Assembly: GCF_000001735.4 (NCBI RefSeq)
Contig: NC_003076.8
Location: forward strand, 11,098,001 to 11,162,000
Length of the DNA stretch: 64,000 nt
Direction of reading: 5' to 3'
DNA from: Arabidopsis thaliana
Lineage: Eukaryota; Streptophyta; Magnoliopsida; Brassicales; Brassicaceae
Shown: piece after piece, positions 3,498-64,000 of the stretch
How positions within the stretch are numbered: the first letter of the stretch is position 1
Layout: the number at the start of each line of letters is the position of its first letter
The notes under the pieces: generated by a model
Database searches by the model: none
The model's input: only the letters and a program-made list of their open reading frames with translations
What the model was told of the DNA's origin: nothing
Made by a program: the position numbers and the translations under genes

Positions 3498-3498
3498 T

Positions 3499-4708
3499 TG
3501 ATATGATTCAAATTACCTAGAATTACTCTCTCAAATAAGAGATCAATTTCAGTATTTAAGGATCGAATTCACGGAGTTATTTTGTTCAAACAGTAAGTTG
3601 AATGTCGACATTAAGCTAGCAGGGTAATAGTGAAAATAAAAGAAAACAAAGTAAAAAGACAGCAGGATGATTGTGTTGTGAACGATTTAATAAAGACCTA
3701 GGAACAGGGTATTCTCAGGAAACTATTGGTTAGTAGATCTAATGAAAGCTAGGTTGTTATCGAACCATTGTTAAACTCAAACTCTTATTATGGAATAACC
3801 GGTGGGCGTGCCGCGAAACTCCCTATATCTATAGCTAATAATAACCGGAGAAGCCGAGAAACTATCAACCTAAATATGCATTCTTAGCGAGTTCAATTGT
3901 TCATCTTAGTAGATAGGCCGATTCTTATTACACACCTATAAACTTGACTCATCAAATAATAGATCCAACTACAGATACATATGGCGGGCATATCAATTGT
4001 CTGGATTCAAGATCTAGTTAATTACTCTAGATCTAGCATTAAACATAATTAAAGATGAAGAATTCTACAGATAACCTAGCAAAGGGGGCAATTTACTAAA
4101 CCATATGAATCCCTAATGAGAAACCCTATTCCTAACAAGCAGACTACTCAGACATATTGAATGAAACAAACAACATAATTGAGATAGAAAGCATAAACAC
4201 AACAATAGAGATAAGAGTTAGAAAAGATCTCTTCACTGTATTAAAAACTGGAATGAGTCTCTCAAGAACAATGGATGAATAGCTTATGTCTCTCAGTCAC
4301 AGGGTTTTGCAAAAGCTTGATAAAAGACTTGATAAAAGAAACATAGGTCTAAAAACAATATATAAAACCCTAAAAACGTTCAGGGACTAATAATGCAAAT
4401 AGGAAAGTTTTCTAGGGCAAATTTCCTCTTCTGTAAACTTGAAAGTGTCATGGACTTCTGCAGGGCCAAAACTGGTGTCGATCAACACCAAGAGTGTGTT
4501 GATCGACACTCCTCGCTGATTCCTAAACCAAAATCGTCCTTAGTTTCCTTTTCCTTAGCTATTACTCCAAAATGTCTCCTTATCTCCATTGTTGTCCCAT
4601 TGCATAGAATACCTGAAAAAACACTAAAAAGACTCGAGAAATAACATAAAGACTTAAAATCATATACCTAAAACATAGATAAAATCAGTGAAAATTGGGT
4701 TATATCAC
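3499..4708 (-). repeat. Athila-type LTR (minus)
   Basis: The LTR runs from TGATATGATTC (3499) to GGGTTATATCA (4708), so its inverted ends are TGATAT/ATATCA. Two degenerate TCGATCGA palindromes lie at 4474-4489 and 4495-4510, with centres 21 bp apart. It is the 5' LTR of the truncated fragment. Closely similar copies lie at 36241-37449, 48779-49977 and 61506-62714. Confidence 0.85.
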
Positions 4709-5705
4709 CCATCTGTGGGAAAAGACGCTACCCGAGCGATCAATCACGACCTAGGATGACTGCAAAAAGGCCTTCTTGGCAAAATTCTTCTCCAACTCCA
4801 GGACTGCAAGACTCCAGAATGAGATCTCGGGATTCACTCAGAAGCAAAATGAAAGCTTCTATGAAGCTTGGGAACGCTTTAAGGGTTATCAAACCAAATG
4901 CCCTCATCACGGATTTAAGGAAGCTTCCCTTCTCAGCACACTTTACAGAGGCGTCCTGCCTAATATACGTATGCTCCTTGACACCGCATCCAATGGGAAT
5001 ATCCTGAACAAAGATGTCGAAGACGCATGGGAGCTAGTTGAAAACTTGGCTCAGTCGGATGGCAATTACAACGAGGATTATGACAGAAGCATCCACACCA
5101 ACTCTGAATCTGATGACAAGAACCATCGAGAGATTAAAGCTCTCAATGACAAAATCGACAAACTCCTCCGAGTGCAACAGAAGCATGTTCACTTCGCCTC
5201 TGAGGATGAAGTATTCCAAATCCAAGAGGGGGAGAATGATCAGTGCGCTGAAATCAGTTATGTTCGAAACCAAGGCGGCTACAACAAAGGGTACAACAGT
5301 TACAGACCCAACCCAAATCTGTCATACAGAAGCACAAATGTCGCTAATCCTCAGGACCAAGTTTACCCTCAGAAGCAGCAGCGGCAGAACAAACCAAAAC
5401 CGTTTGTTCCTTACAACCAAAGCCAAGGGTTCGTTCATAAGCAACAGTTCCACGGAGGGTATTAACAGCAACATCCAGCACCAGCACTTCAGGAATCAGA
5501 CATGAAGAATATGCTCCAGCAAATAATGCAAGGCCAAGCCGCAGAAGTAATGGAAAATGCTAAGAAGCTGGCTGACTTACACAACAAAATTGACAAACAG
5601 TTCGTTGAAATGAGTAGCGGGATCGAATCATTGAGCAAAAGGGTACGACATATAGAAGGCACAACCGCTTCTACATCAGCCACACCAGGATACATCACAG
5701 GATAA
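4709..5705 (+). pseudogene. gag: Athila gag, 5'-truncated with in-frame stops
   Basis: The frame opens at HLWEKTLPERSITT, a mid-capsid block of Athila Gag. It continues through [30 protein letters not shown]-like LYRGVLP and the [20 protein letters not shown] tail. A coiled, lysine-rich segment follows from 5502. In-frame stops occur at about 4751 (TAG), 5463 (TAA, where Gln is expected) and 5703 (TAA). There is no start codon for this protein because the front third is absent. Confidence 0.8.
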
Positions 5706-6357
5706 CCAATACATAATTCAAAGGAGTATGCCCACTCAATCACTCTAAGAAGAGGACGAGCGTTGCCACCAAAAGGAGAGCCTAACCCCAACACTGAGGA
5801 CAATGTGGTTCAAGAGGGGGAGGATTTTTATCAAGACGATGTTTTGGCTGACAAAACAATCGAAGAGCCCACTCTCACCAGTCAACCCACTCAACCACGA
5901 GTCCCACCAGCTACTCCCTCTGTTGAAAAACTGGTAGCTGCAAAGACCAAAGACACAGTCTTTGTACCACCGCCCTACAAACCGCCGCTTCCATTCCCTG
6001 GTCGTTTCAAAAAAGTTCTGATTGCAAATTACCGTGCTTTTTTGGAAAAAGAGATAAACGATCTTGATGTCACTATGCCCTTGGTAGATTATTTCGCGCT
6101 GATACCTGACTGTCACAAATACGTGAAAGACCTAATCACAGAAAGGATCAAAGAAGTCCAAGGAATGGTGGTATTAAGTCATGAGTACAGTGCAATTATC
6201 CAATAGAAGGTCATACCTAAGAAATTGGAAGATCCAGGCTCATTCACTCTACCATGCTCACTAGGCCCTTTAGCATTCACAAGATGCTTATGCGATTTAG
6301 GTGCTTCGGTCAGTCTGATGCCTCTCTCCGTAGCCTAGAAACTTGGTTTTGATAAAT
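5706..6357 (+). pseudogene. Athila Gag-Pol linker and protease N-terminus
   Basis: Same frame as gag. HSITLRRGRALPPKGEP opens the region. A Pro-rich segment follows (VPPPYKPPLPFPGRFKK), then the protease entry CLCDLGASVSLMPLSVA. Athila proteases usually show D-L/F-G in place of D-T/S-G. Stops are at about 6204 and 6337. Right after the DLG motif the sequence jumps into reverse transcriptase, so the rest of the protease and the RT fingers are deleted. Confidence 0.75.
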
Positions 6358-7163
6358 ATAAAACTTATAGCAGCTTTTTTCAAATTCCTATCCACCCAAA
6401 TGACCAAGAGAAAACTACATTCACGTGTCCCTATGTGACTTTTGCTTATAAACGAATGCCTTTTGGACTTTATAATGCACCCGCCACTTTTCAGCAGTGC
6501 ATGACTTCTATTTTCTCCGATTTGATAGAGGAGATGGTCGAGATATTCATGAATGATTTTTCTGTGTATGGCTCTTCTTTCTCCTTATGTTTGCTTAATT
6601 TGTGCAGGGTACTTAAGAGATGCGAAGAGACAAACCTGGTGCTGAAATTGGAAAAATGTCACTTCATGGTCATAGAAGGAATCGTCTTGGGGCACAAAAT
6701 ATCAGAAAATGGGATAGAAGTTGATAAGGCAAAAGTTAATGTCATGGTGCAGTTGCAGCCACTAAAGACTGTGAAAGACATCAGAAGTTTTCTCGGACAT
6801 GCTGGGTTCTACAGGAGATTCATCAAGGATTTCTCTAAGTTGGCTAGACCACTCACCAGGCTGCTATGCAAAGAGGCTGAGTTCACGTTTGATGAAGAAT
6901 GTCTGGTTGCTTTCAAATTGATCAAAAGAATCATTGATCTCTGCTCCAATAGTCCAAGCACCTAATTGGGATCACCCTTTTGAAATCATGTGTGATGCTT
7001 CGGATTACGCTGTGGGAGCAGTTCTAGGACAAAGGATCGATAAGAAGTTGCATGTCATCTACTACGCTAGTAGAACGATGGATGATACACAAGTAAGGTA
7101 TGCCACTACGTAGAAAGAACTATAAGTTGTGGTCTTTGCATTCGAAAAGTTTAGGAACTATAA
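6358..7163 (+). pseudogene. Athila reverse transcriptase and RNase H, internally deleted
   Basis: The region starts at SFFQIPIHPNDQEKT, in the RT palm, and continues with PFGLYNAPATFQQCM and SFLGHAGFYRRFIKDFSKLARPLTRLL. The catalytic motif reads FMNDF where F/YxDD is expected, so one active-site Asp is lost. An extra A near 6921 shifts the frame. RNase H (CDASDYAVGAVLG) follows with two stops (about 7112 and 7124) and a second indel near 7160. In the following segment TDH reads TNH. Confidence 0.8.
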
Positions 7164-8737
7164 GTGACAGTCTACACTAATCATGCTACTCTAAGGCACA
7201 TCTATGCAAAGAAAGATACCAAGCCGAGGTTGCTAAGATGGATTCTGCTGCTCCAAGAATTCGATATGGAGATAGTGGATAAAAAGGGGATCAAAAATGG
7301 TGTAGCTGATCACTTATCACGAATGAAAATTGAAGATGCAGTCCCTATTGACGATACCATCCCTGAGGAACAGCTTATGGTCATCCAGGAAGTGAACAAA
7401 AAATTCAAAAGCAGCCAGTTTTGGGATGAGATGCTTGAAGTAGAGGAGAAACTTCCGTGGTATGCTGATTATGTCAACTATTTATCATGTGGTGAAGAGC
7501 CTCCAAATCTTTCAAGGTACGAAAGAAAGAAGTTCTTCAAAGACATAAATCGCTTTTACTGGGATGAGCATTACCTCTACACTCTCTGCAAAGATAAAAT
7601 CTATTGGAGATGTGTCTCAGAAGATGAAATAGAAGGTATCTTGCAGCACTGTCATGGTTCCAGCTATGGCGGCCATTTCGCAACATTCAAGACAGTATCT
7701 AAAATTTTACAAGCAGAATTTTGGTGGCCAACCATGTTCAAAGACGGTCAAGAGTTCATTTCAAAATGCGATTCGTGTCAGAGAAGGGGAAACATAAGCA
7801 GAAGAAATGAGATCCCTCATAACCCGACTTTAGAGGTTGAGATTTTTGACGTATGGGGAATTGATTTCATGGGTTCGTTTCCGTCCTTGTATGGGAATAA
7901 GTATATATTGGTTGCAGTAGACTATGTGTCAAAATGGGTGGAAGCAATAGCCAGCCCTACGAATGATGCTAGAGTCGTCCTGAAGTTATTCAAGAGCATC
8001 ATCTTCCCAAGATTTGGAGTTCCTAGAATAGTCATTAGTGATGGAGGCACGCACTTTGTCAACAAAGTTTTCGAGAGTTTACTGAGGAAGAATGGGGTTA
8101 AACACAAGGTAGCGACTCCTTACCACCCATAGACAAGTGCCCAGGTGGAAATCTCTAACAGGGAGATAAAATCGATTCTAGAGAAAGCTGTTGGGAACAC
8201 CAGGAGAGATTGGTCTGTAAAGCTCGATGATGCGTTATGGGTGTACAGAACAGCTTTCAAGACCCCCATTGGCACAACCCTGTTCAATCTTCTTTATGGG
8301 AAATCCTGTCACTTACCTGTTGAACTGGAGTACAAAGCTATGTGGGCAGTGAAACTTTTAAATTTCGACATCAAGACTGCTGAAGAGAAAAGATTGATAC
8401 AGCTTAACGACCTCGATGAGCTCCGTGTAGAAGCATATGACAGCTTAAGGAAAGTACCAAGTCGTTTCATAACAAGAAAATAACTTCAAAATATTTTAGA
8501 GTAGAAGATCAAGTGTTGCTATTCAATTCTCGCTTGAAGCTTTTTCCTAGAAAACTCATGTCTAGGTGGTCTGGCCCCTTCAATGTTAGTGCAGTAAGAC
8601 CATATGGAGCTATCACGTTGTCTGGAAAAGGTGAAGACTTCACAGTTAACGACCAAAGACTAAAGAAATATATGACAGACCAAACAATTCCAGAAGGAAC
8701 TTCTGTTCCACTGGAAGAGCCACCCAACCCCCAATAA
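7164..8737 (+). pseudogene. Athila RNase H end and integrase
   Basis: The end of RNase H is followed by [15 protein letters not shown] and DHLSRM. The integrase zinc finger follows ([11 protein letters not shown]...CDSCQ), then the catalytic core with all three acidic residues: [15 protein letters not shown] and QVEISNRE. Breaks are a TAG at 8130 (where Gln is expected), a stop at 8483 and a frame change before LFPRKLMSRWSGPF (8513-8737), which is the C-terminal barrel-like tail. No chromodomain is seen, as usual for Athila. Confidence 0.85.
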
Positions 8738-9287
8738 GCGTGAGGAGTCAAGCTAGAGACTCTAAACAAGCTCACTTGGGAGGAAATTCCATGACTATCT
8801 TTGTATATAATTTAAACTTTCTTATTGTTTTCTAACTCACTTTGGTGGTGTTTTAATCTTAGGAAAGTAAGTGACAAAATCAATTACAGGATGAATAGTG
8901 ATCTACAGGGTGAATAGTGATCTACAAGGTGAATAGTGAATTACAAGGTGAATAGTGGAGTCACTCAATCACGAAGTCAAGACGATTTTCAAACTTTTCG
9001 ATCGAGTGATTTATTTCCAGGGAAGTAACAGTTCGAAAATTTTGATAACGGGTCACTGCACGTTTTCGGTCAAGTCCAAGGTGTGATTGAGTACGTGGAG
9101 TGGGCGAAATCAGGCCATCACTTCCCAATGACAAAACCGGTGAAGCCCACCTTGTCCCCCATGACAAAAATGTCAACAATTCTATAGTTCTTACCACCCA
9201 CCTCTCATCACGTTTTTGCCAAGGGAAGAGCTCTCCTCACCTACGTACCTCACCTACGTAAGGAGCGCATCTACCTCCTCCTATTCC
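8738..9287. other. Athila spacer between pol and ORF-1
   Basis: Non-coding. It holds a 19-bp tandem repeat (listed separately). The rest is unremarkable sequence leading into a TATA box at 9288. Confidence 0.6.
8891..8958 (+). repeat. 19-bp tandem repeat, about 3.5 copies
   Basis: TGAATAGTG recurs at 8892, 8911, 8930 and 8949, an exact 19-bp period. The unit is GTGAATAGTGATCTACAAG with few mismatches. It lies in the spacer between pol and the ORF-1 promoter region. Confidence 0.85.
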
Positions 9288-9295
9288 TATAAATA
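9288..9295 (+). promoter_or_regulatory. TATA box of a possible internal ORF-1 promoter
   Basis: CCTATAAATACC lies 480 bp before the ORF-1 ATG. It is followed by a CT-rich leader with a CTCTCTCTCTC tract, the layout of a plant core promoter. It sits between pol and ORF-1 rather than in an LTR. That suggests a separate transcript for ORF-1, but this is inference. Confidence 0.5.
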
Positions 9296-9349
9296 CCAAT
9301 CTCCTCATCCAATGTTAATCACACACAACAACATCTCTCTCTCTCTCAT

Positions 9350-9686
9350 ACTCAATCGCAAGCTTCTCTGTCTTTAAGCGATGCCTTCACTCGATCGCAA
9401 GCCTCTCCACCCTTGGAAGTTTACTTCACTCGATCGCAAGCTCCCGACGCCTCGCCCTCTTTCACTTGGTCACAACCCTGTGACGCTCAACCGCCCCCAA
9501 CATCTCACTTAGAAGATCTTAAGCCATCCTCGTCAAGTTCACTCGATCACAAGCTCAAGACACCCGATTCTCACCTCTTTCCACTCGATCACAAACCCGC
9601 AACGTCTCCACGTTTGTTTCTCTCCCTCTTTTACTCGATCGTAACCACTCTGAGCTCAAGTCCACCTCTTTCACTCGATCACACTA
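9350..9686 (+). repeat. ACTCGATCRCAAG interspersed repeat array
   Basis: Copies or near copies of ACTCGATCGCAAG or ACTCGATCACAAG start at 9350, 9389, 9428, 9464, 9541, 9583, 9633 and 9673. The first three are exactly 39 bp apart and the others 36-77 bp apart. The stretch is open on the plus strand (9413-9730) and would encode repeated (S/P)LDHK or TRSQ-like units. I judge it a leader repeat, not a protein. Confidence 0.75.
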
Positions 9687-9775
9687 CCGCCGAAGTTCAG
9701 GAAGTCACTTCTCTCACTCCTCTTCCTTAGATTTGATAAAGTTTAGTTGTGAGTTTTGAATCAATTTCAGGAACA

Positions 9776-11658
9776 ATGACCTCATACAATTATGATTATC
9801 CAATGGATGCTGATTTCAACGGTGATGAGGCAGAGTCATGGTCAACAAGACCAGAGAGAGAAGCGAAGGAATACCAACGTTTCCGAGAAGAAACGGAGCG
9901 AGCCGCTGCCAATGACAGGAGAAGAGAAGAGATAGCCAGAGGGAAGAGGTCAATGACAGAGAATTATGAGCCAATCGATGAAGAGATGGAAGATGACGCG
10001 GAGTAAATTCTGGAGCAAACCCGTAAGACCACCAAGTCTTTGATGAAAAAAGACAAGCTGACCCCGGGAGACTACTACAAGGTTCTCAAAAGAAATCCAT
10101 TTTGGAGAACAAGATATCCTCACCCGGAGACAATAGCGGAGTTAGGCATCCTGGAGGACGTTCAGCTCTTGTTCGAGAAATGCCACATGACAACACTCAT
10201 GTCTCATCCCTATCCTACCTATGAGGATGACACACTTCAATTCCTTTCATCACTTCAAGTGGAATTGTTTGAGGGGTTGTCAGCTGCTGAGTTAAGAGAA
10301 GAAGGGCTTGGTTACTTAAGCTTCACTATCGACGACCGCGACTATATCATGGCGATCAAGACTCTGGAAACCATGTTCGGGTTTCCCAGTTGCACGGGAA
10401 TGAAACCGAGGTTTGCCCGAGAAGAATTAAAATCTTTGTGGAACACGATCGAAGACACCACCAGCTTCAACTCCGCTAGATCCAAGAGCAACTCCAATCG
10501 CAATCCCGCCATTCGCTATTTTCAGAGAACCATGGCCAATGTCCCTTACGCTAGGGAGATATCCGCCACTGTGATGAATCAAGACATGGATACGTTAGAC
10601 CTAGCGCTGCTGAGTTTCCTCTGTTACACCAAAGACAGGAAAACGATGAAAGGAGATGCCAATGACACACCCCCGTCAATGTATCTCCTCAATCACCTAT
10701 GCAGCTATAGAGGGTGGGCGCTGGCCAATGACAAGAAGAACGCAAAAGGAGCCCTTTGCATTGGAGAAGTGGTCACACCAATCCTCCTATCGTGCGATGT
10801 CCCGCTGCGACCGGATCTAATCCCACCACGTTGGATGGATATCGTCCATCTCAAGCTTGCCCATGTGATCGAGCATAAGGTCTATGACAGGAGGTACGCT
10901 TTCAAGTTTGATCACCCATCAACAGGAGAAGCAACTATTCTTCTCCCATTCAGTGAAATGACAACCATCACGGTGAGAGACAACATCGACTTCTCGTCAT
11001 CACAAGAAATCCTCCATGCTGTGATTGGAGGATCCGCGTCCCGCAATATTGAAAAAGTAGAAGGTCAGAGTGACAATGAGGAGACCAACTATGAGAACTA
11101 TGACACTAGCTGGTACCACATTGAAGAACACAAGCCCCCTTCACGAGAAAGCAAGAGTCTCGCTGAAGCACACCGGAAGCTCAGTCTAACCCAAAGGTGG
11201 TGCAAGTTTCAAGATAAGATCATCCATAAGTGTGTCAAAGCCATTGACAACATGCAGAAGGCACTCAACTGCACCACATCCACCAGTGCGATCACCAGAG
11301 ACAACTCGCTAGAAGACATGCCATCCAGGCGTCATGACATTGCTCCGCCAAGGCAATCTGCTTATCAACAGAGAGAACTCGCTGCCCGGCAAGAACCCGC
11401 ACAACACTCGTCTCACGAGGTCAGGGAGCACAAGAGGAGGAAAAGCGCTAGGATGGTCGGATCATGAAGCAAGGGTCGGATAATGTCGGGCCAGAGTGTC
11501 GTGCTCCACAACCTACTGGGGTTGCGATCGAGCATAACTACGAGGAGATGGCTGAGCCACATCAAGAACCGGTCATGCATGCGGAGTACACTCAAGCATA
11601 TATGGATGACTACATCTCAGCACATTCTACTGAGGTAACACACCAAAACCCTTTGTAA
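9776..11658 (+). pseudogene. Athila ORF-1 protein (PF03078 family), env-position ORF
   Basis: The ATG at 9776 follows an acceptor-like TTTGAATCAATTTCAG|GAACA. The product starts with an acidic/basic region ([19 protein letters not shown]). One in-frame TAA at 10004 interrupts it, then it is open to 11467. Recognisable blocks are [35 protein letters not shown] and [13 protein letters not shown], typical of the Athila ORF-1 family, which lies where retroviruses carry env. The function is unknown. At 11464-11467 the stop overlaps an ATG (ATGA), and the next frame continues to 11658 with a plausible C-terminus, so a one-base shift or a true overlap is present. Confidence 0.85.
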
Positions 11659-36234: not shown

Positions 36235-36240
36235 CGCGTG

Positions 36241-40256: not shown

Positions 40257-40261
40257 GTTCC

Positions 40262-41520: not shown

Positions 41521-41590
41521 AGTCTCCCCCCCCTTGAATTGGATTTGTCCTCGAATCCGCATCAAGTTGATCTTTACCCATCTCCTTGAA

Positions 41591-44859: not shown

Positions 44860-44962
44860 CTACACATTCCCTTAGAATGCTGAGTACCTCCCCTTTCCCA
44901 TATGTATGATGCAATGCAAATGCAGTTATTGAAATAATGAATAGGGAGTTGTGAGAACGTAC
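44860..44962 (-). other. Candidate intron between gag and pol of element C
   Basis: On minus, AITG-coding sequence is followed by GTACGTTCTC... and ends ...GGAATGTGTAG before GGACCTTGAGAGG. Length is 103 nt (1 mod 3). Gag and pol lie in different frames, and removing exactly this GT-AG interval joins ITG to TLRGG...THTLFDSGA in one frame. If retained, Gag ends at a stop shortly afterwards. A branch-like TTCTAAG is near the 3' end. Splicing itself is inferred. Confidence 0.55.
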
Positions 44963-45896: not shown

Positions 45897-46007
45897 GAAG
45901 TGTCTCGTGCCCAGCCTTGAGATATGTTCGAGAACAACTATCGCGAGATTCTCAAGCCGACAAGGGGTGATACCCCTTAACCCAACACCTAGTCCTAGAA
46001 CCAAGCA

Positions 46008-46023
46008 TGCTCTGATACCAACT
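46008..46023 (-). other. Primer-binding site of element C (tRNA-Met)
   Basis: Minus AGTTGGTATCAGAGC starts right after the 5' LTR. TGGTATCAGAGC is complementary to the 3' end of plant initiator tRNA-Met. Confidence 0.9.
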
Positions 46024-47281
46024 TGAAAGGCCCCAATCCAGACTGCCTAAAGTCCGGACGAGTTCTCTCGACCCAAGCCACTAAGTGACTCGGCCCTAAC
46101 CGTTTATGAGGTTCTTTCCTAGTCTAATCCGTTCCATATGATTCCGTGATTCAATATATGACGCGAATAGAGTAAACAACCAATCAAATACTTTATTGAT
46201 TAAGCAAAGGATTCGATACAACCTATGAGTTTGCATATAAGCTATTACAAGTAATATAATCGATCCCTAGACTATCCGAACTATCACCACCCATCATCCT
46301 GGCCTTGAGTCTCTCGCGCTTAAGCCAAGTCCTTCCCACGATCACCATTCGTTCCTGAAAGTCATAGAGCCATAAGTAATCTCATTTACTTAATCATATG
46401 CAAGTCCATGCAATGCTCTATATGCCATACACTACTCGGATCCGTGGAGAGAATTCAGAGAGGGGAAGATCGCGCATCAGTCTGGCCGATTCTCGGCAGG
46501 TCAGTTAAGACCCGCCGGTCCTCCGCCGAGCCGCGTCCCGGCTCAGCCGATCCCTACCCGGACCGAGTCTTGTGTAGGATGCACATGACCCGGAAACTAC
46601 CCAGCCCTCTAGTCGATCCTTTCAAGGATCCGGCTACTAACTCACATCCTAGAACCCTTAGACTCAAAGTCTAGGATCCCTTACCTTCCTTCTCGAGGTT
46701 AGGTCGATCCGACCCTCCTTCTTTATTGTCGGCCACAGCCCGGCTACCGAATCCTAAGACTATTTATTCTCCCAAGAGGGAGAGAGTTTTAATGGTGAGT
46801 TTCTTGTGTTTTCGGTGTGTTGTGGTGAGTGGATGCTTCCCGAATCAACACATCCGTTCCTTGCACCTTTCCAAAGAGTTGCACCTTTCCGAAGAGTTGC
46901 GCCTTTCCGAAGAGTTGTATCTCTTCGCCCATAACCGCCCAGCTAGTCCGTCACTCGTCCAGTTACCTCGAGCTCGTCCATCACTCGTCCAGCTACCTCG
47001 AGCTCGTCCGTCACTCGTCCAGCTACCTCGAGCTCAACCGTCACTCGTCCAGCTGCCCGAGCTGGACTGTCACTCGACCTGAGTAACCGTCACTCCTTCC
47101 AGCTGAGCTTGAGCTTTGGGCGAGCTGACCCAACTGATTTCTTTACGATCCTAGCTTAGCCTGCATGATTTCTCCTTTGTCCGAGCTTATGGCCAGCTCC
47201 TTCTCACTTGTCCGAGACTCCACCTTCTTCTCTCGGACCAAGTCCTAGCCAGCGATCCTATTGAGGATCGCGGGCGTTAAA
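46024..47281 (-). repeat. 5' LTR of element C
   Basis: 1,258 bp, nearly identical to 40262-41520, with the same 18-bp and 30-bp repeats (ACTCGTCC at 46953, 46983, 47013 and 47043). The outermost bases read GTTAAA instead of GTTACA. GTTCC follows. Confidence 0.92.
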
Positions 47282-47286
47282 GTTCC

Positions 47287-48651
47287 TCTAAAAGCTGCTT
47301 TGAGGAAAAGTCTTCTAGAAAGCAGGCTTTGGAGTGTAGTTGGAGGAAACCTGGTTCCCTGTAAACCTGTTGCCACTGAAGTTGCCATGTGGCTGCCCAA
47401 ACTTCCTGTATCCCTCACCATCTATGTAGAAGACTCATTCCTCTGACTCATGGTCAGGCTCAATAGTTTCTTCCTCAGCAGCAAATTAGACATGCTTCTT
47501 CCATGTGAGCAAGTATGAACTGAATCCAGCTTAGCATTCACCTCTGCGATCTGATTTCCTGAAATAGCTCTAGCAATCTTCTTCCTCTCAAAATCAGCAT
47601 TCTTGGTGCTGTTGCTGCAAGCAAGGTTCTCTATCAGGGCTGTAGCATTAGCTGGGTAACGTGTGTTGAAGTTACCATTGCTTGCTGCATCTAAAGCCAT
47701 CTGGTATCTCCAATCAACTCCTCTGAAAAAGGTACCTAGAAGTTGTACCTCACTGAAACCATTATGTGGACAATCTCGTTGGTATTCCTTGAAACGAACC
47801 CAAGCAGCCTTGAAAGCTTCAGCTGGACCTTGTGTGAAGGTAGACAGCTTGTTTCTCAACTCCTCAGACTTAGCATCATCGTAGAAATTGTTCAAGAAGG
47901 CTATCTTGATGCTTCTCCAAGTCTTGAGGGACCCTGCTTTAAGTTGCTTCAGCCAAGAAGCTGCTTCCCCAGCAAGTGAATAAGGGAAGAGCTTGCACAG
48001 AAGGTAGTCCTCTGAGACTCCATTAGCCTGGATGCTCAGAACAAGGTCCTCAAATCTCTCGATATGATCCATTGGCTGCTCATGAGATAAGCCATGGAAA
48101 GGACGCTGGCCAACTAAAGCAAAGTAGCCAGGCTTCAGCTCATAATCGTTCCTCTAGAATGGTGGGGGTACAATCGCTGATCAATTAGCATAGAACAGGT
48201 ATGACCTGTTGAAATCCCCAAGAGTACGACGTGGTTCCGCAGCTGAAGGAATAGGTGCAGGAATCTGGTGTTGGTGTCGATCGACACCTCTGTTGTGTCA
48301 TTCGACACCGACTGCATCGGCGTGCTGCTCCCGATGGTGTCGATCGACACCCAGTTGGTGTCGCTCGACACCGTGCCCTTCTCCATCTCAAGCAGCTAAC
48401 TGCGCATTGAGGCGCGCTTGATCCTCATTGGCGTCCTCAGGTAGGATGAGTCCATGATCATCCAATCTCTGACCAGCCTCATTGTAGGCTCACCCATCCT
48501 CATCTCTCAAAACTCCTTCTGCAGCTCTGATGACCCTGTCAGCCATTGCTAATTTCTGAGTTTTTCGGTTGGTGCGTTCAAGTTTTCCCAAGTCCAGAAC
48601 AGACAAGTTGATATGCTCCTTCTGTTTTGTGCTCCTTGTTTGCCTAGGCAT
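47287..48651 (-). pseudogene. gag: Athila-N gag, N-terminal and capsid part
   Basis: ATG at 48651 (MPRQTRSTKQKEHINLSVLD) follows an acceptor-like pyrimidine/CAG leader. It includes the GVDRH heptad repeats (48273-48372) and the capsid blocks HIERFEDLVLSIQANG, WRSIKIAFLNNFYDD and FRGVDWRYQMALDAASNG. In-frame stops occur at several sites (for example about 48490, 48398 and 48180), and a frameshift near 47500 precedes the GYRKFGQPHGNFSGN tail. The protein continues across element C at 40256. Confidence 0.75.
48273..48372. repeat. 21-bp-phased palindrome array in gag
   Basis: GGTGTCGATCGACACC or variants have centres at 48280.5, 48301.5, 48343.5 and 48364.5, so the spacings are 21, 42 and 21 bp. 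On the coding (minus) strand each unit gives GV(D/E)RH with a 7-residue period. The same register occurs at 3032-3089 and 63124-63223. Confidence 0.95.
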
Positions 48652-48778
48652 ACACCTGAAACACAGAAAAGAAGAAAACAAGAAACGCGTGAGTAACAAA
48701 ATAGAAGTAAAAACTAGACAAATTCACTAAACAAAACTCAATGATGATTCCCAAGAACTCCAACAACGGCGCCAAGTT

Positions 48779-49977
48779 TGATATGGTTCAAATTACGTAG
48801 AACTACTCTCTCAAATAAGAGATCATTTGCAGTATTTTAGGATCGAATTCACGGAGTTCTTTTGTTCAAACAATGAGTTAAATGTTGAGATTAAGCTAGG
48901 AGGGTATGAGTGAAATAGTAAGTAAACAAAGTAAAAAGACAGCAGATTGATTGGGTTGTAAACGATTAGGAAAAGAGCTAGGAACAGGGTATTCTCAGGA
49001 AACGATTGGTTAGTAGATCTAATAAAAGCTAGGTTGTTATCGAACCATTCTTAAACTCAAACTCTAATTATGGAATAACCAGTGGGCGTGCCGCGAAACT
49101 CCCTATATCTAGAGCCAATAATAACCGGAGAAGCCGAGAAACTATCAACCTAAATATGCATTCTTAACGAGTTCAATTGTTCATCTTAGTAAATAGGCCG
49201 ATTCTTATTACACACCTATAAACCAGACTCATCAAATAATAGATCCATATACAGATACCTATGGCGGGCATATCTATTGTCTGTATTCAAGATCTAGTTA
49301 ATTACTCTAGATCAAGCATTAAGCATAATCAAAGATGAAGAATTACAGATAACCTAGCAAAGGGGGCAATCTACTAAACCATATGAATCCCTAATGAGAA
49401 ACCCTATTCCTAACAAGCAGACTACTCATACATATTGAATGAAACAAACGACATAATTGAGATAGAAAGCATAAACACAATAAATAGAGAAGGGGAAAAA
49501 AAGGATCTCTTCATTGTATTAAAAACTAGAATCTCTCAAGAACAATGGATGAATAGCTTATGTCTCTCACAATAGGGTTTTGCAAAGAACTTGATAAAAG
49601 ACTTTATTTACAAAACTTAGGTCTAAAAACAATATATATAGACCCTAAAAACGTCCAGGGACTAATAATGCACATAGGGAAGTCTTCTGGGCAAATTTGA
49701 GCTTCTGTAAACTCGAAAGCGTCTAGGGTTTTTGCTGGGCCGAAACTGGTGTCGATCGACACAAAGAGTGATTCGATCGACACTCCTCGCTGATTTCTGA
49801 ACCAAAATCGTCCTTAGCTTCCTTTTCCTTAGCTTTTGCTCCAAAATGTCTCCTTATCTCCATTGTTGTCCCATTACATAGAATACTTAAAAAGAGACTA
49901 AAAAGACTCGAGAAATAACATAAAGACTCAAAATCTTATACCTAAAACATAGATAAAATCGGTGAAAATCGGGTTAT
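48779..49977 (-). repeat. 5' LTR of Athila-N
   Basis: Starts TGATATGG (48779) and reads GGGTTAT at 49971-49977, where the expected final ATCA is missing. Palindromes are at 49748-49763 and 49769-49784, with centres 21 bp apart. A PBS (GGCGCCGTTG on minus) adjoins on the left at about 48764-48775. Confidence 0.85.
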
Positions 49978-50477: not shown

Positions 50478-51502
50478 TGTAACGCCCCCGAATTGCCCTA
50501 TGGCTAGACAAGCCACGGGTGACACAGTTACGCTACAGTGAAGTTGATCGATCACAACTTAGTAGAGGTTCCAGATGAATCCGGTTCTTTAACCAAATTA
50601 TAATCGACCTTCCACCCACTAGGAACACCACTTAGGCTTGCCAACCCTCGTGATATTATAGTGTTGAGCGACCCGGACTAGGTCTTATATCATTAAACAC
50701 TCGGCTGCCTTTAAGAAAACATTTTATGCATAGTATATAGCTTATACTTGGCAAAGAGTTACCCAAAAATATATCTTTATATCGGATCCTTGTTAAAATT
50801 TACATAATAACAAGTAATTTTGCAGAAGCAACGTAAAATATCCTATTGCAGAAGCAACGTAAAATATCTCTAGTCTGAAACAAGTTATTTTGCAGAAGCA
50901 ACGTAAAATATCTCTAGTCTGAAACAATGTTTCCTCGACCATGTGCAAGGTTTTATCGATTCAGGCAAGTTTTTCTTAGTTTCGGTCGAGTTTTTAATCG
51001 GACAGCCTTTTAGTCTCTCTCTCTTGCCTTCAAAAATGAAACTAGGCGGAGAGAGCTCTATTTATAATCCGCCCAAGGTTGGCCATGCATTACCGCCCGC
51101 TGCCACAAGTCCGGACAGCTGCCGCGCCCACAGGCGACAGGTGTCTCGAACGACAGCGTGGTGACAGGTGGCAACGAGTGTCACTCCACCACCCATCAAC
51201 TTCGGCTCCAAGACTCAGCTGACTTCGTCTCCAAGACTCAGCTGACTTCGGCTCCAAGGTTGGTAACTTGAGCCGCAAGGCACCGCGAGTGAGGTGTCCT
51301 ACTCATGTCGGTTCCGCGGCCGGTGGGGCAAACTTCACCGTGGCACGCCCTTCTTTTCCCATCTTTGCCCATTCGTGCCCATTCTTGCCCTTTGATGTTT
51401 TGGCACCGTTTGGACACACGCGGTCAATTGGCTTTGCATTCGGGCAAAAGTTTCTCATTTGGTCCTTTGGCCGTGCCTGATGCCCTTATGGGGGTCACTA
51501 CA
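50478..51502 (-). repeat. 5' LTR of element B, internally rearranged
   Basis: TGTAACGCCCCCG (50478) to GGGGTCACTACA (51502), 1,025 bp. It is about 650 bp shorter than the B 3' LTR after the B2 insertion is removed. A middle block is replaced by three copies of GCAGAAGCAACGTAAAATAT (50822, 50848 and 50892). The TATA box (TTATAAATAG on minus) is at about 51059-51068 and the TTGCCC repeat of exactly 10-bp period is at 51365-51390. Confidence 0.85.
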
Positions 51503-53447: not shown

Positions 53448-53467
53448 GCGTGGATGCCACTGGTCTT

Positions 53468-54098: not shown

Positions 54099-56201
54099 TG
54101 TAACGCCCCCGAATCGCTCTATGGCCGGACAAGCCAAGGGCAACCCGAAAACGCCACATTGATAGCTCACACGGACAACCCAACTTAGGTTCCAAATGGC
54201 TTTAGACCCTTAGCCAGATTATCCACATGAACATCCCTCACGAACACGGTTTAGGCTTTTCAACCCTTGCCATGATCGTGAGTTATGTCAGTCTAGACAA
54301 GACTAATATCGCATGAAACACACTCAACTATCCAAAACGTTTCAACAATGGGCCCTTCAGCATACACGCTCAAATCCAACAAAAATCATAATCATTAAGT
54401 TTTTCAAAAAGTTACAAACTCTATACTGGCTTTCCTACGTCCTGAGCATCCCTCTAATGGTTCCCACTAAGGTTTCCTGCAAAACAAAATGGAATCATAA
54501 GTAATCTAAGATTACTTAGTGAGCTCGGTCTACCTGCAACAGATATTAGTTCCCCATCCCATTATCATAACCCGAAACATGCAACAGAGAATAACAACAA
54601 AAGGCAACTTACCGAAGCATCTACCAAAAATATGCACATGCAACTAAGACTCCAGTTTTATTAAGTTTTTAAAAGGGCCTTATATGCTGCCTTCAAACCC
54701 AACGCCAAACACACACACTCCCGTGATCTCCCGCGTTACAACCACAAAGGTATGCAACCGGAACATCACTACCAAACGCTACACCATCGTGTAGACACTC
54801 GGCCAGGGTAGTTAGGCCCGTCTCTCCAAGTTCTCCGTACTTCATGGCGATCAAGTAACAACGTTACAAGACCCCAGAATAGCACGGTTCACTACGAAGG
54901 TCAGACATACCACAATCTTGATACGCTTATGGTCTCTACCTCCTACCAAGAGCACCACGTACTAAGACCCAACATTTAAGATATTATGAGACATATGGTT
55001 ACTCAAACTCATAGAATCATCAATATTCTTACTCATCACAACCTCCCAAACCTAACCCTTAAGCATAAGAATCTAAAAGATCTCATATGCGGCTTAGTAC
55101 CATCACACCATTAGTTAATACTCATATAATTCATGAAATAAATCAATGAATGCAAGAGTATATGATCATGCAACCAAACAAGCAATCAATCACCCAAATA
55201 AACACTCAAACCTATCATTTGCCATATCACACGCTTCGAGACTCACAGAGATTCGGTTGAAGGTTTAAGGTTAGCTTCAACGATTCTCGGACATTCCATG
55301 GCTTCCCAATCTTGATCCCAGCTCAATTTACCTCTCTTCATCTTGATCTAACATCTCTTGATAGAAGCAACCTTGATTCATGAAGCTTTACTCTGAACAC
55401 ACATTTATGGGACGGGTTCCTCGGAAGGTTCTCGATCGGACAGGATAACAGCATGGATTTCTCGCTCATGGGCAGGAATTCTCGATCACGGACATGATTT
55501 CTTCACTCACGGTCAAAGAATCGCAGTCACGGGCAGAGTTTTTCAATTGTGGGCAAGTTTTCTCTCGATTACGGGCGATTTTTATGAGTCGGGCAGCCAT
55601 TCGGATCACTCTCCATTCTCCCATCAAATGGCTCGAGTTTGGCCAAGCATTTATAGGTGGAACAGCTTGGGCTCCAAGCAAACGCATGTCATCTGGTGGT
55701 GACACCTTGCGGGACACATGTCGCCCGCCCGTGAAGACACATATGCTGCAGGAATGGGACGATGACACGTGGAAGGGGAAACTTCGGCTCCAATCCTCAT
55801 AATTTTGGCTCCAAGCAACTTTCTTGGGCTCCAAGTAAGCCAGTCCACGTGTCCATGGCGCGGTCAAAGGGCGGTCAATGCCCGACAGGGCAAATTTTCG
55901 CCCGTGGAACGCCCGTATTGCCCAATCTTGCCCATCTTTGCCCATTATTGCCCAAATAGTAATATCTTTTGCCCTTTGATGGTTTAACACTTTTTGGGCA
56001 CATATGGGAATCGACCATGTACCCAGGGCAACTTTCTCCCGGATGACCCCATCTCGAACTAGAGTTAACCATATTCATTCTTGCCTTGATCGTCTCTTTG
56101 GATTTCGTTCCTTAACTATTTATTTTCTCTTTCAGGTCATCCTCAGATGTTCCTCGATGTTTTTCCGCTTGGGCGTTTACCCCTTAGCGAGGGTCATTAC
56201 A
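54099..56201 (-). repeat. 3' LTR of element F
   Basis: TGTAACGCCCCCGAATCG (54099) to GAGGGTCATTACA (56201), 2,103 bp. It has the palindrome TAAGTAATCT-A-AGATTACTTA (54498-54518), a TATA box (TATAAATG on minus, about 55650-55657) and the 10-bp-phased TTGCCC array at 55911-55960. On minus, the PPT (AAGGGGGGGGGGAGGGGT) adjoins at 56206. Confidence 0.88.
55911..55960. repeat. 10-bp phased TTGCCC repeat in LTR F
   Basis: GCCCGTATTG, CCCAATCTTG, CCCATCTTTG, CCCATTATTG and CCCAAATAGT start at 55911, 55921, 55931, 55941 and 55951, an exact 10-bp period. Confidence 0.92.
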
Positions 56202-58578: not shown

Positions 58579-60087
58579 AAACGCCCTCGAATCGCTCTAT
58601 GGCCTGACAAGCCAAGGGCAACCCGGAAACGCCACATTGATAACTCACACGGACAACCCAACTTAGGTTCCAAATGGCTTTAGACCCTTAGCCAGATTAT
58701 CCACATGAACATCCCTCACGAACGCGGTTTAGGCTTTTCAACCCTTGCCATGATCGTGAGTTATGTCAGTCCCGACAAGACTAATATCGCATGAAACACA
58801 CTCTTTATATGAAAATAATCTTTTATAATATATAAATTTCTCAGACAACCAAGTATCCAAAACGTTTCAACAATGGGCCCTTGAGCATACACGCTCAAAT
58901 CCAACAAAAATCATAATCATTAAATTTTGCAAAAAACAACAAACTATATACCGGCTTTCCTACGTCTTGAGCATCCCTCTAATGGTTCCCACTAAGGTTT
59001 CCTGCAAAACAAAATGGAGTCATAAGAAATCTAAGATTACTTAGTGAGCTCGGTCTACCTGCAACAGATATTAGTTCCCCATCCCACTATCATAATACGA
59101 AACACGCAACAGAGAATAACAACAAAAGGTAGCTTGCCGAAGCATCTACCAAAAATATGCACATGCAACTAAGACTCCTGTTTTATTAAGTTTTTAAAAG
59201 GGCCCGATATGCAAAACATCAAACCCAACGCCAAACACACACTCCCGTGATCTCCCGCGTTACAACCACAAAGGTATGTAACCGGAGCATCACTAACAAA
59301 CGCTACACCGTCGTGTAGACACTCGGCCAGGGTAGCTAGCCCCGTCTCTCCGAATTCTTCACACTTCATGGCGATCAAGTAACATAGTTACAAGACCCCA
59401 CAATATCACGGTTCACTACGAAGGTCAGACATACCACGATCTTGATACGCTTATGGTCTCTTCCTCCTACCACGAGCACCACGTATCAAGACCCATATTT
59501 AACATATTATGAGACATATGGTTACTCAAAATCATAGAATCATCAATATTCTTACTCACCACAACCTCCCAAACATAAGCCTTAAGCATAAGAATCTAAA
59601 AAAACCTCATATGCGGCTTAGTACCATTAATTAATACTCATATAATTCATGAAATAAATCAATGAATGCAAGAGTATATGATCATGCAACCAAACAAGCA
59701 ATCATGCAACCAAACAAGCAATCAATCACCCAAATAAACACTCAAACCTATCATGTGCCATATCACACGCTTCAAGACTCACAGAGATTCGGTTGAAGGT
59801 TTAAGGTTAGCTTCAACGATTCTCGGACATTCGATGGCTTCCCAATCTTGATCCCAGCTCAATTTAACTCTCCTCATCTTAATCTAACACCTCTTGATAG
59901 AAGCAGCCTTGATTCATGAAGCTTTACTCCGAATAAAGACGGGTTCCTCGGAAGGTTCTCGATCGGACAGGAAAACAGCTTGGATTTCTCGCTCATGGGC
60001 AGGAATTCTCGATCACAGACATGATTTCTTCACTCACAGTAAAAAAATCTCAGTCACGGGCAGAGTTTTTCAATCGTGGGCAAGTTT
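58579..60087 (-). repeat. 5' LTR of element F, truncated
   Basis: Colinear with 54099 to about 55560 (shared text such as 'tttagacccttagccagattatccacatgaac'), including the palindrome at 59023-59043. It has a small insertion of CATGCAACCAAACAAGCAAT-type duplication near 59690-59715. It breaks at 60087 inside GGGCAAGTTT, where Athila sequence begins, so about 600 bp of the U3 end, including the phased array, is missing. Confidence 0.82.
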
Positions 60088-61505
60088 CCAATAGTCGGAT
60101 TGACTCGAACTTGCAGTACTTATCAATCAAGCAATAATCAAGAGAAATATAGATCATGACTCCTAACTAAACTAAAGAAAACGTTTATTTTTTAAGACCC
60201 AATAAACTCAAAAACGGAAAATAATAAGAATCAAAAATAAAACCAATATTAGTAAGAACCTCCCCAGTGGTATTAAAATCCAGAGAAATCGGGAAAAATA
60301 AATCAAAAATGAAAGAAAATAAAAGAAAGGGAAAAGAAAAATCAAACTTGTGGGTTGCCTCCCACTAAGCGCTTGTTTTGAGTAAATAGGTTGACTCTGT
60401 AGTTGCTTAATCAACAGGTGGATCCTGAAGATCCAAAGGCTTTTCTACTGGAATCTTGGCTTCAGCCCAGTAGTGTTTGACTCTATGTCCATTCACAGCA
60501 AATGGTTTTTCATTGTTGTTTTTGAGAATGACTATTCCATATGGCCTAACCGAGTGGACTATGAAGGGATCTGTCCAACGAGAACACAATTTTCCAGGAA
60601 ATATTGTCAATCTAGAATCATAAAGAAGTACCTGGTCATTAGGCTCAAAGGTCCGAGTGAGGATCTTCTTGTTGTGGTAAGCTTTTGTGTGTTCCTTGTA
60701 GAGCTTCGAGTTGTCTAAGGCGTGAATTCATAATTCATCAAGCTCATTCAACTGAATAAGACTCCTTTCTCCAGTTGATTTGATGTCGAAATTCATCATC
60801 TTGACTACCCAAGCTGCTTTGTGCTCTAATTTCACTAAAAGATGACAAGCTTTACCATATAGAAGATGAAAATGTGTGGTCCCAAGCGGAGTTTTGAAAA
60901 CTATCTTGTAGGCCCACAGTGCATCATCTAACTTGTAGGACCACTCCTTTTTCGCTTTACCCACTGTTTTCTCAAGAATCTCTTTGATTTGCCTGTTGCA
61001 AACTTCAACTTGGCCGCTCGTTTGTGGATGGTAGGGAGTAGCAACCCGATGCTGAACTCCATACTGTAAAAGCAATTTCGCTAGAATCTTGTTAATGAAA
61101 TGCTTACCTTTGTCACTAATGACTATGCGTGGCACTCCAAAACGAGGGAAGATGATTAACTTGAAGAGTTTCATGACAATCGCTAAATCGTTCTTTGGAC
61201 TAGCTATAGCTTCTACCCATTTGGAGACATAATCCACAGCTACTAGGGTGTAGAGATTCTTGTTGGATTGCGGGAAGGCTCCCATGAAATCTATACCCCA
61301 ACAATTAAAGACTTCGACTTCGAGTATAAATTTCTGAGGCATCTCATTACGCTTGCTGATCTTTCCCCTTCTCTGACAAGGGTCACATTGCGATATGAAC
61401 TTCTGAGCATCCCGAAACATTGTAGGCCACCAAAAGCCTGCTTGAAGAACTTTGGATACTGTGAAATGACCACCATAGCTAGAGCTGTGACAATGCGATA
61501 GTATA
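60088..61505 (-). mobile_element. Athila fragment: 3' interior and end of pol
   Basis: 60088-60406 matches the non-coding 3' interior of Athila-N ('ccaatagtcggattg', GGGTTGCCTCCCACT at 60353). Above it lies the end of pol. The fragment is cut on the left by element F and on the right by the LTR of element G (61506). This is the only Athila copy here that keeps both pol and this type of 3' interior. Confidence 0.75.
60407..61505 (-). pseudogene. Athila integrase and C-terminal tail
   Basis: Starts inside the zinc finger ([11 protein letters not shown]...CDPCQRRGK). The core has D in GIDFMGAF, D in ISDKGKHF and E in [12 protein letters not shown], all present. One in-frame stop (TGA at 60728-60730) follows QLNELDEL. 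The frame continues to SRWTDPFIVHSVRPYG and ends at 60407. The front is removed by element G. Confidence 0.85.
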
Positions 61506-62714
61506 TGAAATAACCCGATTTTCACTGATTTTATCTACGTGTTAGGTATAAGATTTTGAGTCTTTATGTTATTTCTCGAGTCTTTTTTGTGTCTTTTTAG
61601 GTATTCTATGAAATGGGACAACAATGGAGATAATGAGACATTTTGGAGCAAAAGTTATGAAAAAGGAAGCTTAGGACGATTTTGGTTCAGGAATCAGCGA
61701 GGAGTGTCGATCGACACACTCTTGGTGTCGATCGACACCAGTTTCGGCCCAGAAAAAACCCTAGATGCCTCCGAGTTTACAGAAGATCAAGTATGCCCCA
61801 GTAGATTTCCCTATTTGCGTTATTAGTCCCTTGATGTTTTTAGGGTATATATATATTAGTTTTAGACCTAAGTTTCTTTTATCAAGTCTTTTATCAAGTT
61901 TTCTACAAACCCTATTACTGAGAGACATAAACCAGTCGTCGATTGTTTTCAGAGTTTTATTCAGATCTATATATAGTGAAGAGATCCATTCTTTCCCCTT
62001 CTCTATTTACTGTGTTTATGCTTTCACACTCAAATATGTTGTTTGCTTCATCCAATATGTCTGAGTAATCTTCTTGTTAGGAATAGGGTTTCTCATTAGG
62101 GATTCATATGGTTTAGTAGATTGTCCCCCTTGTTAGGTTATCTGTAGAATTTTTCATCTTTAACTATGCATAATGCTAGATCTGGAGTAATTAACTAGAT
62201 CTTGAATCCAGACAATAGATATGCCCGCCATAGGTATCTGTAGTTGGATCTATTATTTGATGAGTCTGGTTTATAGGTGTGTAATAAGAATCGGCCTATC
62301 TACTAAAATGAACAATTGAACTCGTTAAGAATGCATATTTAGGTTGATAGTTTCTCGGCTTCTCTGGTTATTATAAGCTATAGATATAGGGAGTTTTGCA
62401 GCACGCCCACCGGTTATTCCATAATTAGAGTTTGAGTTTAAGAATGGTTCGATAACAACCTTGCTTTCATTAGATCTACTAACTAATAGTTACCCTGAGA
62501 ATACCCTGTTCCTAGCTCTTTATTAAATCGTTTACAACACAATCAATCTGCTGTCTTTTTACTTTGTTCTCTTTTATTTTCACTATTACCATGCTAGCTT
62601 AATCTCGACATTCAACTCACTGTTTGAACAAAAGAACTCCGTGAATTCGATCCTAAAATACTACAATTGATCTCTTATTTGAAAGAGTAGTTCTAGGTAA
62701 TTTGAACCATATCA
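61506..62714 (+). repeat. 5' LTR of element G
   Basis: Starts TGAAATAACCCG (expected TGATATAACCC) and ends GAACCATATCA. Palindromes are at 61703-61718 and 61724-61739, with centres 21 bp apart. TATA (TATATATATATT) lies at about 61846-61857, roughly 110 bp downstream of the palindromes, so the pair is in the U3 enhancer position. Confidence 0.9.
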
Positions 62715-62718
62715 AATT

Positions 62719-62735
62719 TGGCGCCGTCGCCGAAG
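62719..62735 (+). other. Primer-binding site of element G
   Basis: TGGCGCCGTCGCCGAAG, the Athila PBS (tRNA-Asp type), starts 4 bases after the LTR. Confidence 0.8.
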
Positions 62736-62841
62736 TTCTTGAGAATCAACATTGAGTTTTGTTTAGAGATTTCGTTTAGTTTTTACTTCTATTTTGTTAC
62801 ACACGTGTTTCTTGTTTTCTTCTTTTCTAAGTTTCAGGTGT

Positions 62842-64000
62842 ATGCCTAGGCAAACAAGGAGCACAAAACAGAAGGAGCTTATCAACTTGTCTGTTCTGGA
62901 CTTGGGAAAACTTGAACGCACCAACCGAAAAACTCAGAAATTAGCAATGGCTGAAAAAGTCATCAGAGCTGATGCAGAAGGAGTTTTGAGAGATGAGGAT
63001 GGGCAAGCTTACAATGAGGCTGGTCAGAGATTGGATGATCATGGACTCATCCTACTTGAGGACGCCAATGAGGATCAAGCGCGCCTCAATGCGCAGTTAG
63101 CTGCTAGAGATGTAGCAGGGCTCGGTGGTGAGCGACACCAACTAGGTGTCGATCGACACCATCGGGAGCAGCACGCGGATGCAATCGGTATCGAACGACA
63201 CAACAGAGGTGTCGATCGACACCAACACCAGATTCCTGCAGCTATTCTTCCATCTGCGGAACCTCGTCGTACTCTTGGGGATTTCAACAGACCAGACCTG
63301 TTCTATGCTAATCGATCAGCGATTGTACCCCCACATTCCAGAGAAACGACTATGAGCTGAAGCCTGGCTACTTTGCTTTAGTTGGCTAGCATCCTTTCCA
63401 TGGCTTATCTCATGAGCAGCCAATGGATCATATCGAGCGATTTGAGGACCTTGTTCTGAGCATCAAGGCTAATGGAGTCTCAGAGGACTACCTACTGTGC
63501 AAGTTTTTCCCTTATTCACTTGTTGGGGAAGCAGCTTCTTGGCTGAAGCAACTTAAAGCAGGTTCCCTCAAGACTTGGAGAAGCATCAAGATAGTCTTTT
63601 TGAACAATTTCTACGATGATGCTAAGTCTGAGGAGTTGAGAAACAAGCTGTCTACCTTCACACAAGGTCCAACTTTCAAGGCTGCTTGGATTTGTTTCAA
63701 GGAGTACCAACGAGATTGTCCACATCATGGTTTCAGTGAGGTACAACTTCTAGGTACCTTTTTCAGAGGAGTTGATTGGAGATACCAGATGGCTCTAGAT
63801 GCAGCGAGTAATGGTAACTTCAATACACGTTACCCAGCTGATGCTACAGCCGTGATAGAGAAGCTTGCTTGTCGCAACAATACCAAGAATGCTGATTTTG
63901 AGAGGAAGAAGATTGCCGGAGCTATTTCAGGAAATCAGATGGCAGAGGTTAATGCTAAGCTGGATTCGGTTCATAACTTGCTCACAAGGAAGAAGCATGC
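62842..64000 (+). pseudogene. gag: Element G gag, frameshifted, runs off the window
   Basis: ATG at 62842 (MPRQTRSTKQKELINLSVLDL) directly follows TTTCTAAGTTTCAGGTGT, which resembles a 3' splice site. GV(D/E)RH heptads lie at 63124-63223. A one-base deletion near 63332 shifts the frame and gives a stop at 63358. The capsid then continues in the other frame, with a TAG at about 63388 (Gln expected) and a short in-frame loss in the GPAEAFKAAW block. The end is outside the window. Confidence 0.78.

Follow-up and report, generated by a model that had tools for sequence, protein, structure and literature searches.

Pairs of a short palindrome, GTGTCG-NN-CGACAC, are set about two helical turns apart in the long terminal repeats (LTRs) of one group of Athila-type elements (Ty3/gypsy) of Arabidopsis thaliana and recur within the coding parts of the same elements. 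They were studied in a window of 64,000 nucleotides of chromosome 5 (G000:C5:11098001-11162000, the whole stretch analysed), which probably lies in the pericentromere, and were counted across the 119.7-Mb genome (7 contigs). With moderate confidence, we regard the palindrome as a putative cis-acting DNA element that a homodimeric protein recognises in sequence-specific fashion, this protein being most probably a transcription factor of the host. We infer both the host origin of this protein and the activation of transcription by the motif.

Abundance and structure of the palindrome

Matches to TGTCGATCGACA with up to two mismatches number 26 in the window, whereas 100 shuffles gave 1.95 on average and never as many as 26. 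Genome-wide, the exact 12-mer occurs 853 times and the backwards-read pattern 5 times, while GTGTCGNNCGACAC occurs 945 times and its reversed control not at all. With a 3-bp centre only 3 copies are found (reversed control 0), and with a 1-bp centre a single copy (reversed control 2). Such a strict 2-bp gap, with 945 copies against 1 and 3, is what a homodimer sitting on two half-sites would ask for.

The first-pass annotation had described a 16-bp palindrome. Its dyad symmetry stands, but the outermost base pair is often mismatched in the window sites (AGTG..CACA, TGTG..CACT), so that the conserved unit is one of 14 bp with a freer 2-bp centre. The window and 54 fetched loci gave 348 non-redundant instances with up to three mismatches in the 12 arm positions, and conservation lies in the arms GTGTCG and CGACAC. 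In a profile of the 305 instances with no more than two mismatches, retention is about 99% for A or T positions within the arms and 86% and 89% for the A and T of the centre, a contrast that is somewhat inflated because the arms themselves selected the instances. Motif clusters, 82 in all, fall into 11 groups with unlike flanks.

Each half-site has the TGTC core recognised by auxin response factors (ARFs), and a pair of auxin response elements would also be a dimeric site. TGTCGA/TCGACA are inverted TGTCNN half-sites, and ARFs are described as binding repeated TGTCNN (PMC10690724). Core, paired half-sites and a spacing read by a dimer are thus features in common with the auxin response elements portrayed in the available text of two reports (PMC10690724, PMC6207667). 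However, the hexamers are 0 bp apart here against 7-8 bp in canonical inverted repeats (PMC10690724, PMC6207667), and the half-site is extended to GTGTCG. Moreover, TGTCGG is the favoured hexamer in the former account (PMC10690724), and the last base of the hexamer belongs to the freer centre of our unit. A search of the open-licence literature for ARF together with TGTCGA gave no match, and we hold an auxin response element pair to be extremely unlikely.

Pairing and position within LTRs

All four LTRs of the main palindrome-bearing family in the window, hereafter family A, carry a pair in U3 with sites 21 bp apart. These pairs occupy 4474-4510 (GGTGTCGATCAACACC / TGTGTTGATCGACACT), 37216-37252, 49748-49784 and 61703-61739, and the centres given in the first-pass annotation (4481.5/4502.5, 37223.5/37244.5, 49755.5/49776.5 and 61710.5/61731.5) are all correct. 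The first of the LTRs, at 3499-4707 on the minus strand, matched 36241-37449, the 48776-49977 region and 61506-62714 by BLAST and is among the 42 matches of a genome search. The others lie at 36238-37449 and 48776-49977 (both minus strand, the latter found by BLAST) and, in the opposite orientation, at 61506-62714 (plus strand, found by BLAST and the genome search).

Further copies were examined in four families. Thirty family-A LTRs were cut from the 42 listed matches, which came from the best 40 of 472 candidates; the other families were sampled by DNA search and fetched loci (12 of 44 listed matches for B, 8 of 54 plus locus L044 for C, 5 of 59 plus locus L001 for D). A pair in every LTR, always 21 bp apart, had been claimed at first; this holds for the window LTRs but is too strong family-wide. 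The spacing is 21 bp in 27/30 family-A copies, with 16 bp in one and a single site in two, and 21 bp in 9/12 family-B copies, the other three having a single site. In family C it is 22 bp, both in L044 and in seven of eight further copies, the eighth having none. The diverged D relatives comprise three copies at 21 bp (up to three mismatches), two with a single site and L001 at 12 bp. Two side observations concern family A. In the LTR of L012 the sites lie at +202 and +218, 16 bp apart, a natural half-turn variant, and L030 and L031, LTRs in opposite orientation on C1, share a single-site state and an equal match score and are perhaps copies of one duplicated stretch.

The pair begins some 175-200 bp into the LTR: the start of its first site is at +196 to +202 in 27/30 copies of family A, at +174 to +202 in the 12 of family B and at +194 in L044. 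A TATAWA lies 116-138 bp beyond the last site in 29/30 family-A LTRs and 123 bp beyond it in L044, in agreement with the original placement of the pair upstream of the LTR TATA box.

Taking all sites together, 189 neighbour distances of up to 130 bp were obtained, among which 21 bp is found 98 times, 22 bp 31 times, 20 bp 11 times and 42 bp 20 times. The main spacing is therefore 20-22 bp (140/189), or about two helical turns, as had been noted from the window. The motif spacings of C1:14357808-14381873 (L049) recur at C1:14403461-14427526, which suggests a duplicated stretch of about 24 kb.

Copies within genes

Recurrence of the palindrome in gag and near the protease was likewise correctly annotated. 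The 5′ part of gag contains three palindromes at 3032-3089 (spacing 21/21), inside an open reading frame (ORF) at 2394-3419 on the minus strand (Retrotrans_gag PF03732, E 7e-21), and two clusters of four, at 48273-48372 and 63124-63223 (both 21/42/21). The cluster at 48273-48372 falls outside the frame of the gag ORF of this copy (47422-48153, minus strand; PF03732, E 5.7e-23). Three palindromes lie in the gag-protease linker at 39809-39898 (21/53), among them the centres 39816.5/39837.5. After the protease, the group at 38643-38921 comprises two pairs spaced at 22 bp (38643-38680 and 38884-38921), the second of which is read by one ORF as SIDT then VDRH. The protease-like ORF (39000-39461, minus strand) has DLGSS in its translation and a match to Asp_protease_2 (PF13650, E 4.3e-4) that is below threshold, at 21.4 bits against a cut-off of 24.3. 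In total, 36238-49977 contains 15 palindrome sites with up to four mismatches of 16. Among the fetched loci, clusters are also found in the RNase H-integrase interval (L048, L052, L027), and the internal clusters occupy largely the stretches between recognised domains.

Single ORFs can hold the motif in all three frames, as in the 533 amino acids of L047 and the near-identical 497 amino acids of L051 (VSIDT, YRSTP and GVDRH/PVDRH). The motif is present in more than one frame in 28 ORF stretches, a count that enters each ORF by itself where ORFs overlap in different frames. When peptides were searched by amino acids only, motif DNA was found to encode VDRH in 28/32 cases, CRST in 15/16 and SIDT in 23/27, where codon usage predicts about 0.4-1.3%; these copies share descent and are not independent. 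Since the same DNA word nearly always encodes the peptides, protein selection alone would not give such a match. Moreover, because one ORF carries this word in three frames, as VDRH, SIDT and CRST, the constraint would be on the nucleic acid and not on the protein.

Such a nucleic acid might be RNA, with GAUC-loop hairpins in the genomic transcript serving dimerisation or packaging. Retroviral packaging hairpins occur paired. Judged by its letters alone, GGUGUC-GAUC-GACACC could pair into a 6-bp stem whose loop is self-complementary, and any hairpin in gag would be part of the genomic RNA. However, core position 2 has 34 left-only and 31 right-only changes among the 348 instances and no double change, where 3.0 are expected. 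The other arm positions have 1-5 double changes, 1-4 of them complementary, which are near the independent expectation or come from one to four copies. This covariation test is a weak one because most changes represent decay after insertion, and we regard an RNA element as very unlikely.

In other plants the motif was followed through proteins, not DNA, by scoring the best 7,995 candidates of a protein search; 162 relatives were obtained, of which 120 are listed, 102 of these with an assigned genus. The 120 relatives hold 55 exact VDRH, SIDT or CRST words against 1.7 in shuffles. At least one word is present in 8/9 listed proteins of Arabidopsis, 4/6 of Capsella, 1/9 of Camelina, 3/39 of Eutrema, 2/26 of Brassica and 0/13 of Microthlaspi. 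Two Capsella gag-pol proteins keep CRST with VDRH/VERH at +95, and one adds VDRH at +21, whereas six of the seven Eutrema proteins printed have a drifted form, SSDT then VARH, with an implied spacing of 22 bp. Judged by these words, the motif is most abundant in Arabidopsis and Capsella and becomes sparser or altered in more distant genera.

Conservation of the motif

Conservation was assessed between families in an alignment of 57 rows (30 A, 12 B, 9 C and 6 D), in which U3 identity reaches 0.745 within the motif against 0.366 outside it. Of all 12-bp windows the second palindrome scores best, and the first ranks 0.91. In an alignment-free comparison of LTR positions +1 to +420, the longest shared word was a motif word in 221/360 A-B pairs. 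Another block of U3 is shared at 98-100 bp after the last site in 29/30 family-A and at 89 bp in 11/12 family-B copies. No acceptable match to this block was found in the C and D copies tried (7 mismatches), so that only A and B can be anchored on it independently. Within family A, mean CpG survival is 0.905 over four CpG sites inside the motif and 0.77 at 24 other CpGs, a small difference on which we do not rely.

Several observations weigh against a conserved binding site. The comparison of palindromes with their flanks that the first-pass annotation had proposed for family LTRs gave a neutral-like result within family A, the two 16-bp motif windows ranking 0.42 and 0.59 of all windows; this is the outcome that the annotation had set down as refuting its reading. 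This comparison has little power, since the copies probably differ mostly by decay after insertion, and is treated as uninformative rather than as support. Masking the motif makes the cross-family alignment lose register (0.30 at the motif, 0.35 in the rest), so that the gain between families comes partly from anchoring by the motif itself. The longest shared word is the motif in just 2/30 A-C, 2/12 B-C, 3/30 A-D, 7/12 B-D and 0/1 C-D pairs (one second C copy being excluded from every pair), and this check thus gives mixed support only. With the caveat of masking, the between-family comparison favours conservation. Family B has no TATAWA-like run at the place seen in A and C in any of the 12 copies examined, though its pair is present. 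In the window, an Athila remnant at 4776-11467 is without the motif, and 4510-37216 has no palindrome at up to four mismatches of 16. On C1 the first listed 14-mer is at 12.85 Mb, and no use by host genes is therefore visible before that point; chance alone would give only about one such site. Finally, the motif instances share descent, and the large counts are non-independent.

Nor is helical phasing of the longer spacings borne out. For spacings above 30 bp, 28 kinds of site pair listed by hand had given R = 0.87 at a period of 10.5 bp (10.75 fitting best), the six long distances of this list (42, 53, 54, 54, 65, 95) being near whole turns (p = 0.0014). This list had omitted 10 of 43 long distances (41, 44, 44, 48, 50, 52, 81, 90, 90 and 109). 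Once every distinct spacing longer than 30 bp is included, R is 0.26 (p = 0.47), and phasing of the long spacings was dropped as support. Counted by copies, which are related by descent, 33/43 long distances are 42, 53, 54 or 95 bp.

The neutral-like variation within family A and the want of robust phasing among longer spacings are in keeping with a neutral minisatellite, that is, a functionless unit of 21-22 bp spread by slippage and template switching. Single-site copies resemble deletions between the two repeats, and the spacers of some pairs are alike by eye. However, a minisatellite fits less well with 82 clusters in 11 groups of unlike flanks, the use of all three frames, the abundance of the 2-bp centre over those of 1 and 3 bp, the persistence of both LTR sites in A, B, C and 3/6 D copies, and the recurrence of linker sites in other genera, each of these points being weakened by shared descent. 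We judge this explanation to be rather unlikely.

Putative autonomous relatives and element-encoded proteins

Reverse transcriptase was not recognised in the window family-A element (three ORFs were scanned against Pfam and the remaining ORF list was inspected by eye), and family A therefore looks non-autonomous. RNase H domains are present in L052, a relative of L048, and integrase domains in L052 and in L048, which carries a family-B LTR. Both loci contain a diverged ORF of the ATHILA family PF03078 (L052:3496-4125, E 2.3e-17; L048:3570-4199, E 9.4e-18), which leaves room for a binder encoded by the elements themselves. The motif could then be the target of a sequence-specific anti-silencing or regulatory protein, acting in trans on family A in the manner of VANC proteins on VANDALs, which are DNA transposons. 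Most sampled motif clusters belong to one Athila group and are dispersed through element bodies, and a PF03078 ORF was not seen in the window family-A element, which keeps the motif. In the available account of Arabidopsis VANDALs, the VANC targets are likewise short motifs that tandem repeats have multiplied in a single group of transposons (PMC5735166). As printed there, however, these motifs (YAGTATTAY and AGTTGTCC/AGTTGTAC), read by an element-encoded binder, are non-palindromic and non-coding, whereas the palindrome here is also found in coding linkers and by eye matches neither the VANC21 nor the VANC6 motif (PMC5735166).

Moreover, the PF03078 ORF of the window belongs to a motif-free element, and its predicted structure, at a predicted local distance difference test (pLDDT) score of 39.6, is too poor to show any fold. 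A protein search with this ORF matched no family-A locus, bar a weak match in the flank of L020. On C1, six of 93 listed PF03078 matches lie 6.4-32 kb from the nearest of 38 motif positions, in a list without diverged copies such as that of L052. An element-encoded binder in the manner of VANC is in our view unlikely. Quite improbable is a further-reaching form of it, in which a clade of Athila elements would have a distributed regulatory code of its own, with some 15 predicted dimer sites in each element, most of them in pairs about two turns apart, set in the promoter and the polyprotein linkers in any fitting frame. A protein made by the elements, such as the PF03078 product of family B, would read this code in trans and open or mark pericentromeric Athila chromatin bearing the motif, and non-autonomous copies would be parasites of the system.

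Organisation of the window

One family-A element of the window lies on the minus strand at 49977-36238 and runs from the LTR at 48776-49977 on its 5′ side through gag, a nested Ty3 element (40262-47286), the gag-protease linker and the protease-like ORF to the LTR at 36238-37449 on its 3′ side. These two LTRs are 94.5% identical, and the latter is immediately preceded by agtctgggggag, which resembles a polypurine tract. After many LTRs comes TTTGGCGCCGTTGCC or a near variant, a primer-binding-site candidate that would correspond to tRNA-Asp. Two further LTRs are accompanied by partial gag, at 2323-4707 (minus strand) and 61506-64000 (plus strand).

The nested element, inserted on the minus strand inside the palindrome-bearing one, has LTRs of 97.9% identity and open gag (401 amino acids) and pol (984 amino acids). 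It is probably of another lineage, because its gag has a zinc knuckle and the element is without the palindrome. The motif-free Athila remnant (plus strand) retains gag-like and integrase sequences and a 475-amino-acid PF03078 ORF. Another repeated pair, 91% identical, is found at 54318-55560 and 58845-60087, adjoining an integrase ORF at 60728-61534. A lone two-mismatch match at 51144-51155 stands outside the clusters.

Relation to known motifs and proposed function

The heat elements of the ONSEN LTR are a symmetric regulatory site in an LTR promoter; to our knowledge, neither these nor box I of Tnt1 are repeated through coding linkers in several frames. Box I, named in PMC2829016, is a symmetric regulatory site in an LTR as well. 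The first-pass annotation held that no standard LTR component explains the pairs, which overlooks a precedent in the palindromic repeated motifs of Sireviruses (PMC2829016). These too are short dyad palindromes that recur many times in an element, with a cluster ahead of the TATA box in the LTR and more copies at a second, internal place, and transcriptional control has been proposed as their function (PMC2829016). If at least eight copies per element are taken as a mark of the Sirevirus motif, the 15 sites of 36238-49977 exceed this number. However, Sireviruses are Ty1/copia elements (PMC2829016), whereas the hosts here carry Ty3-type gag and an ATHILA ORF. The core is CGG-CCG in most Sirevirus elements and CG-NN-CG (TGTCG-NN-CGACA) here, and the extra copies lie mostly before ENV in Sireviruses but in gag and in the gag-protease, post-protease and RNase H-integrase linkers here (PMC2829016). 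Fixed pairs at 20-22 bp and coding use in three frames do not feature in the available text of the Sirevirus account (PMC2829016). The Athila palindrome is of one kind with the Sirevirus motif but belongs to another superfamily, and it differs in its core, its pairs and its three-frame coding use.

Among the matches listed from the open-licence literature, judged by titles and the starts of abstracts, there was no report of such a motif in Athila. The 12-mer TGTCGATCGACA occurs in the text of 5 papers, one of which has it in a 35S terminator primer. A search of the same literature for a possible link to MAIL1/PP7L/DOMINO gave no match. An integration mark had also been suggested at first; nothing found tied the motif to insertion, although no dedicated insertion-site test was made. 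Insertion sites are reported to have only a slight preference for palindromes, with Athila among the four contributing families in the available account (PMC6911290).

If the palindrome is read by a host transcription factor, two dimers would sit next to each other on the same helical face, which may raise occupancy. The LTR pair would serve as an enhancer close to the promoter, and the clusters in the linkers of gag and pol, which tolerate extra codons, might provide further internal enhancer sites. The site was probably multiplied by short tandem duplication and may then have been kept by selection for expression during replication of the element.

Athila elements occupy Arabidopsis centromeres and, in the available account, are important to centromere function once silencing breaks down (PMC10418216). 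What recognises and switches on Athila is thus a live question, and a defined DNA site in the LTR and the element body would give a handle on the factor. Moreover, the palindrome would be a clear case of one DNA word kept in coding sequence in all three frames, where a reading at the level of protein would mislead.

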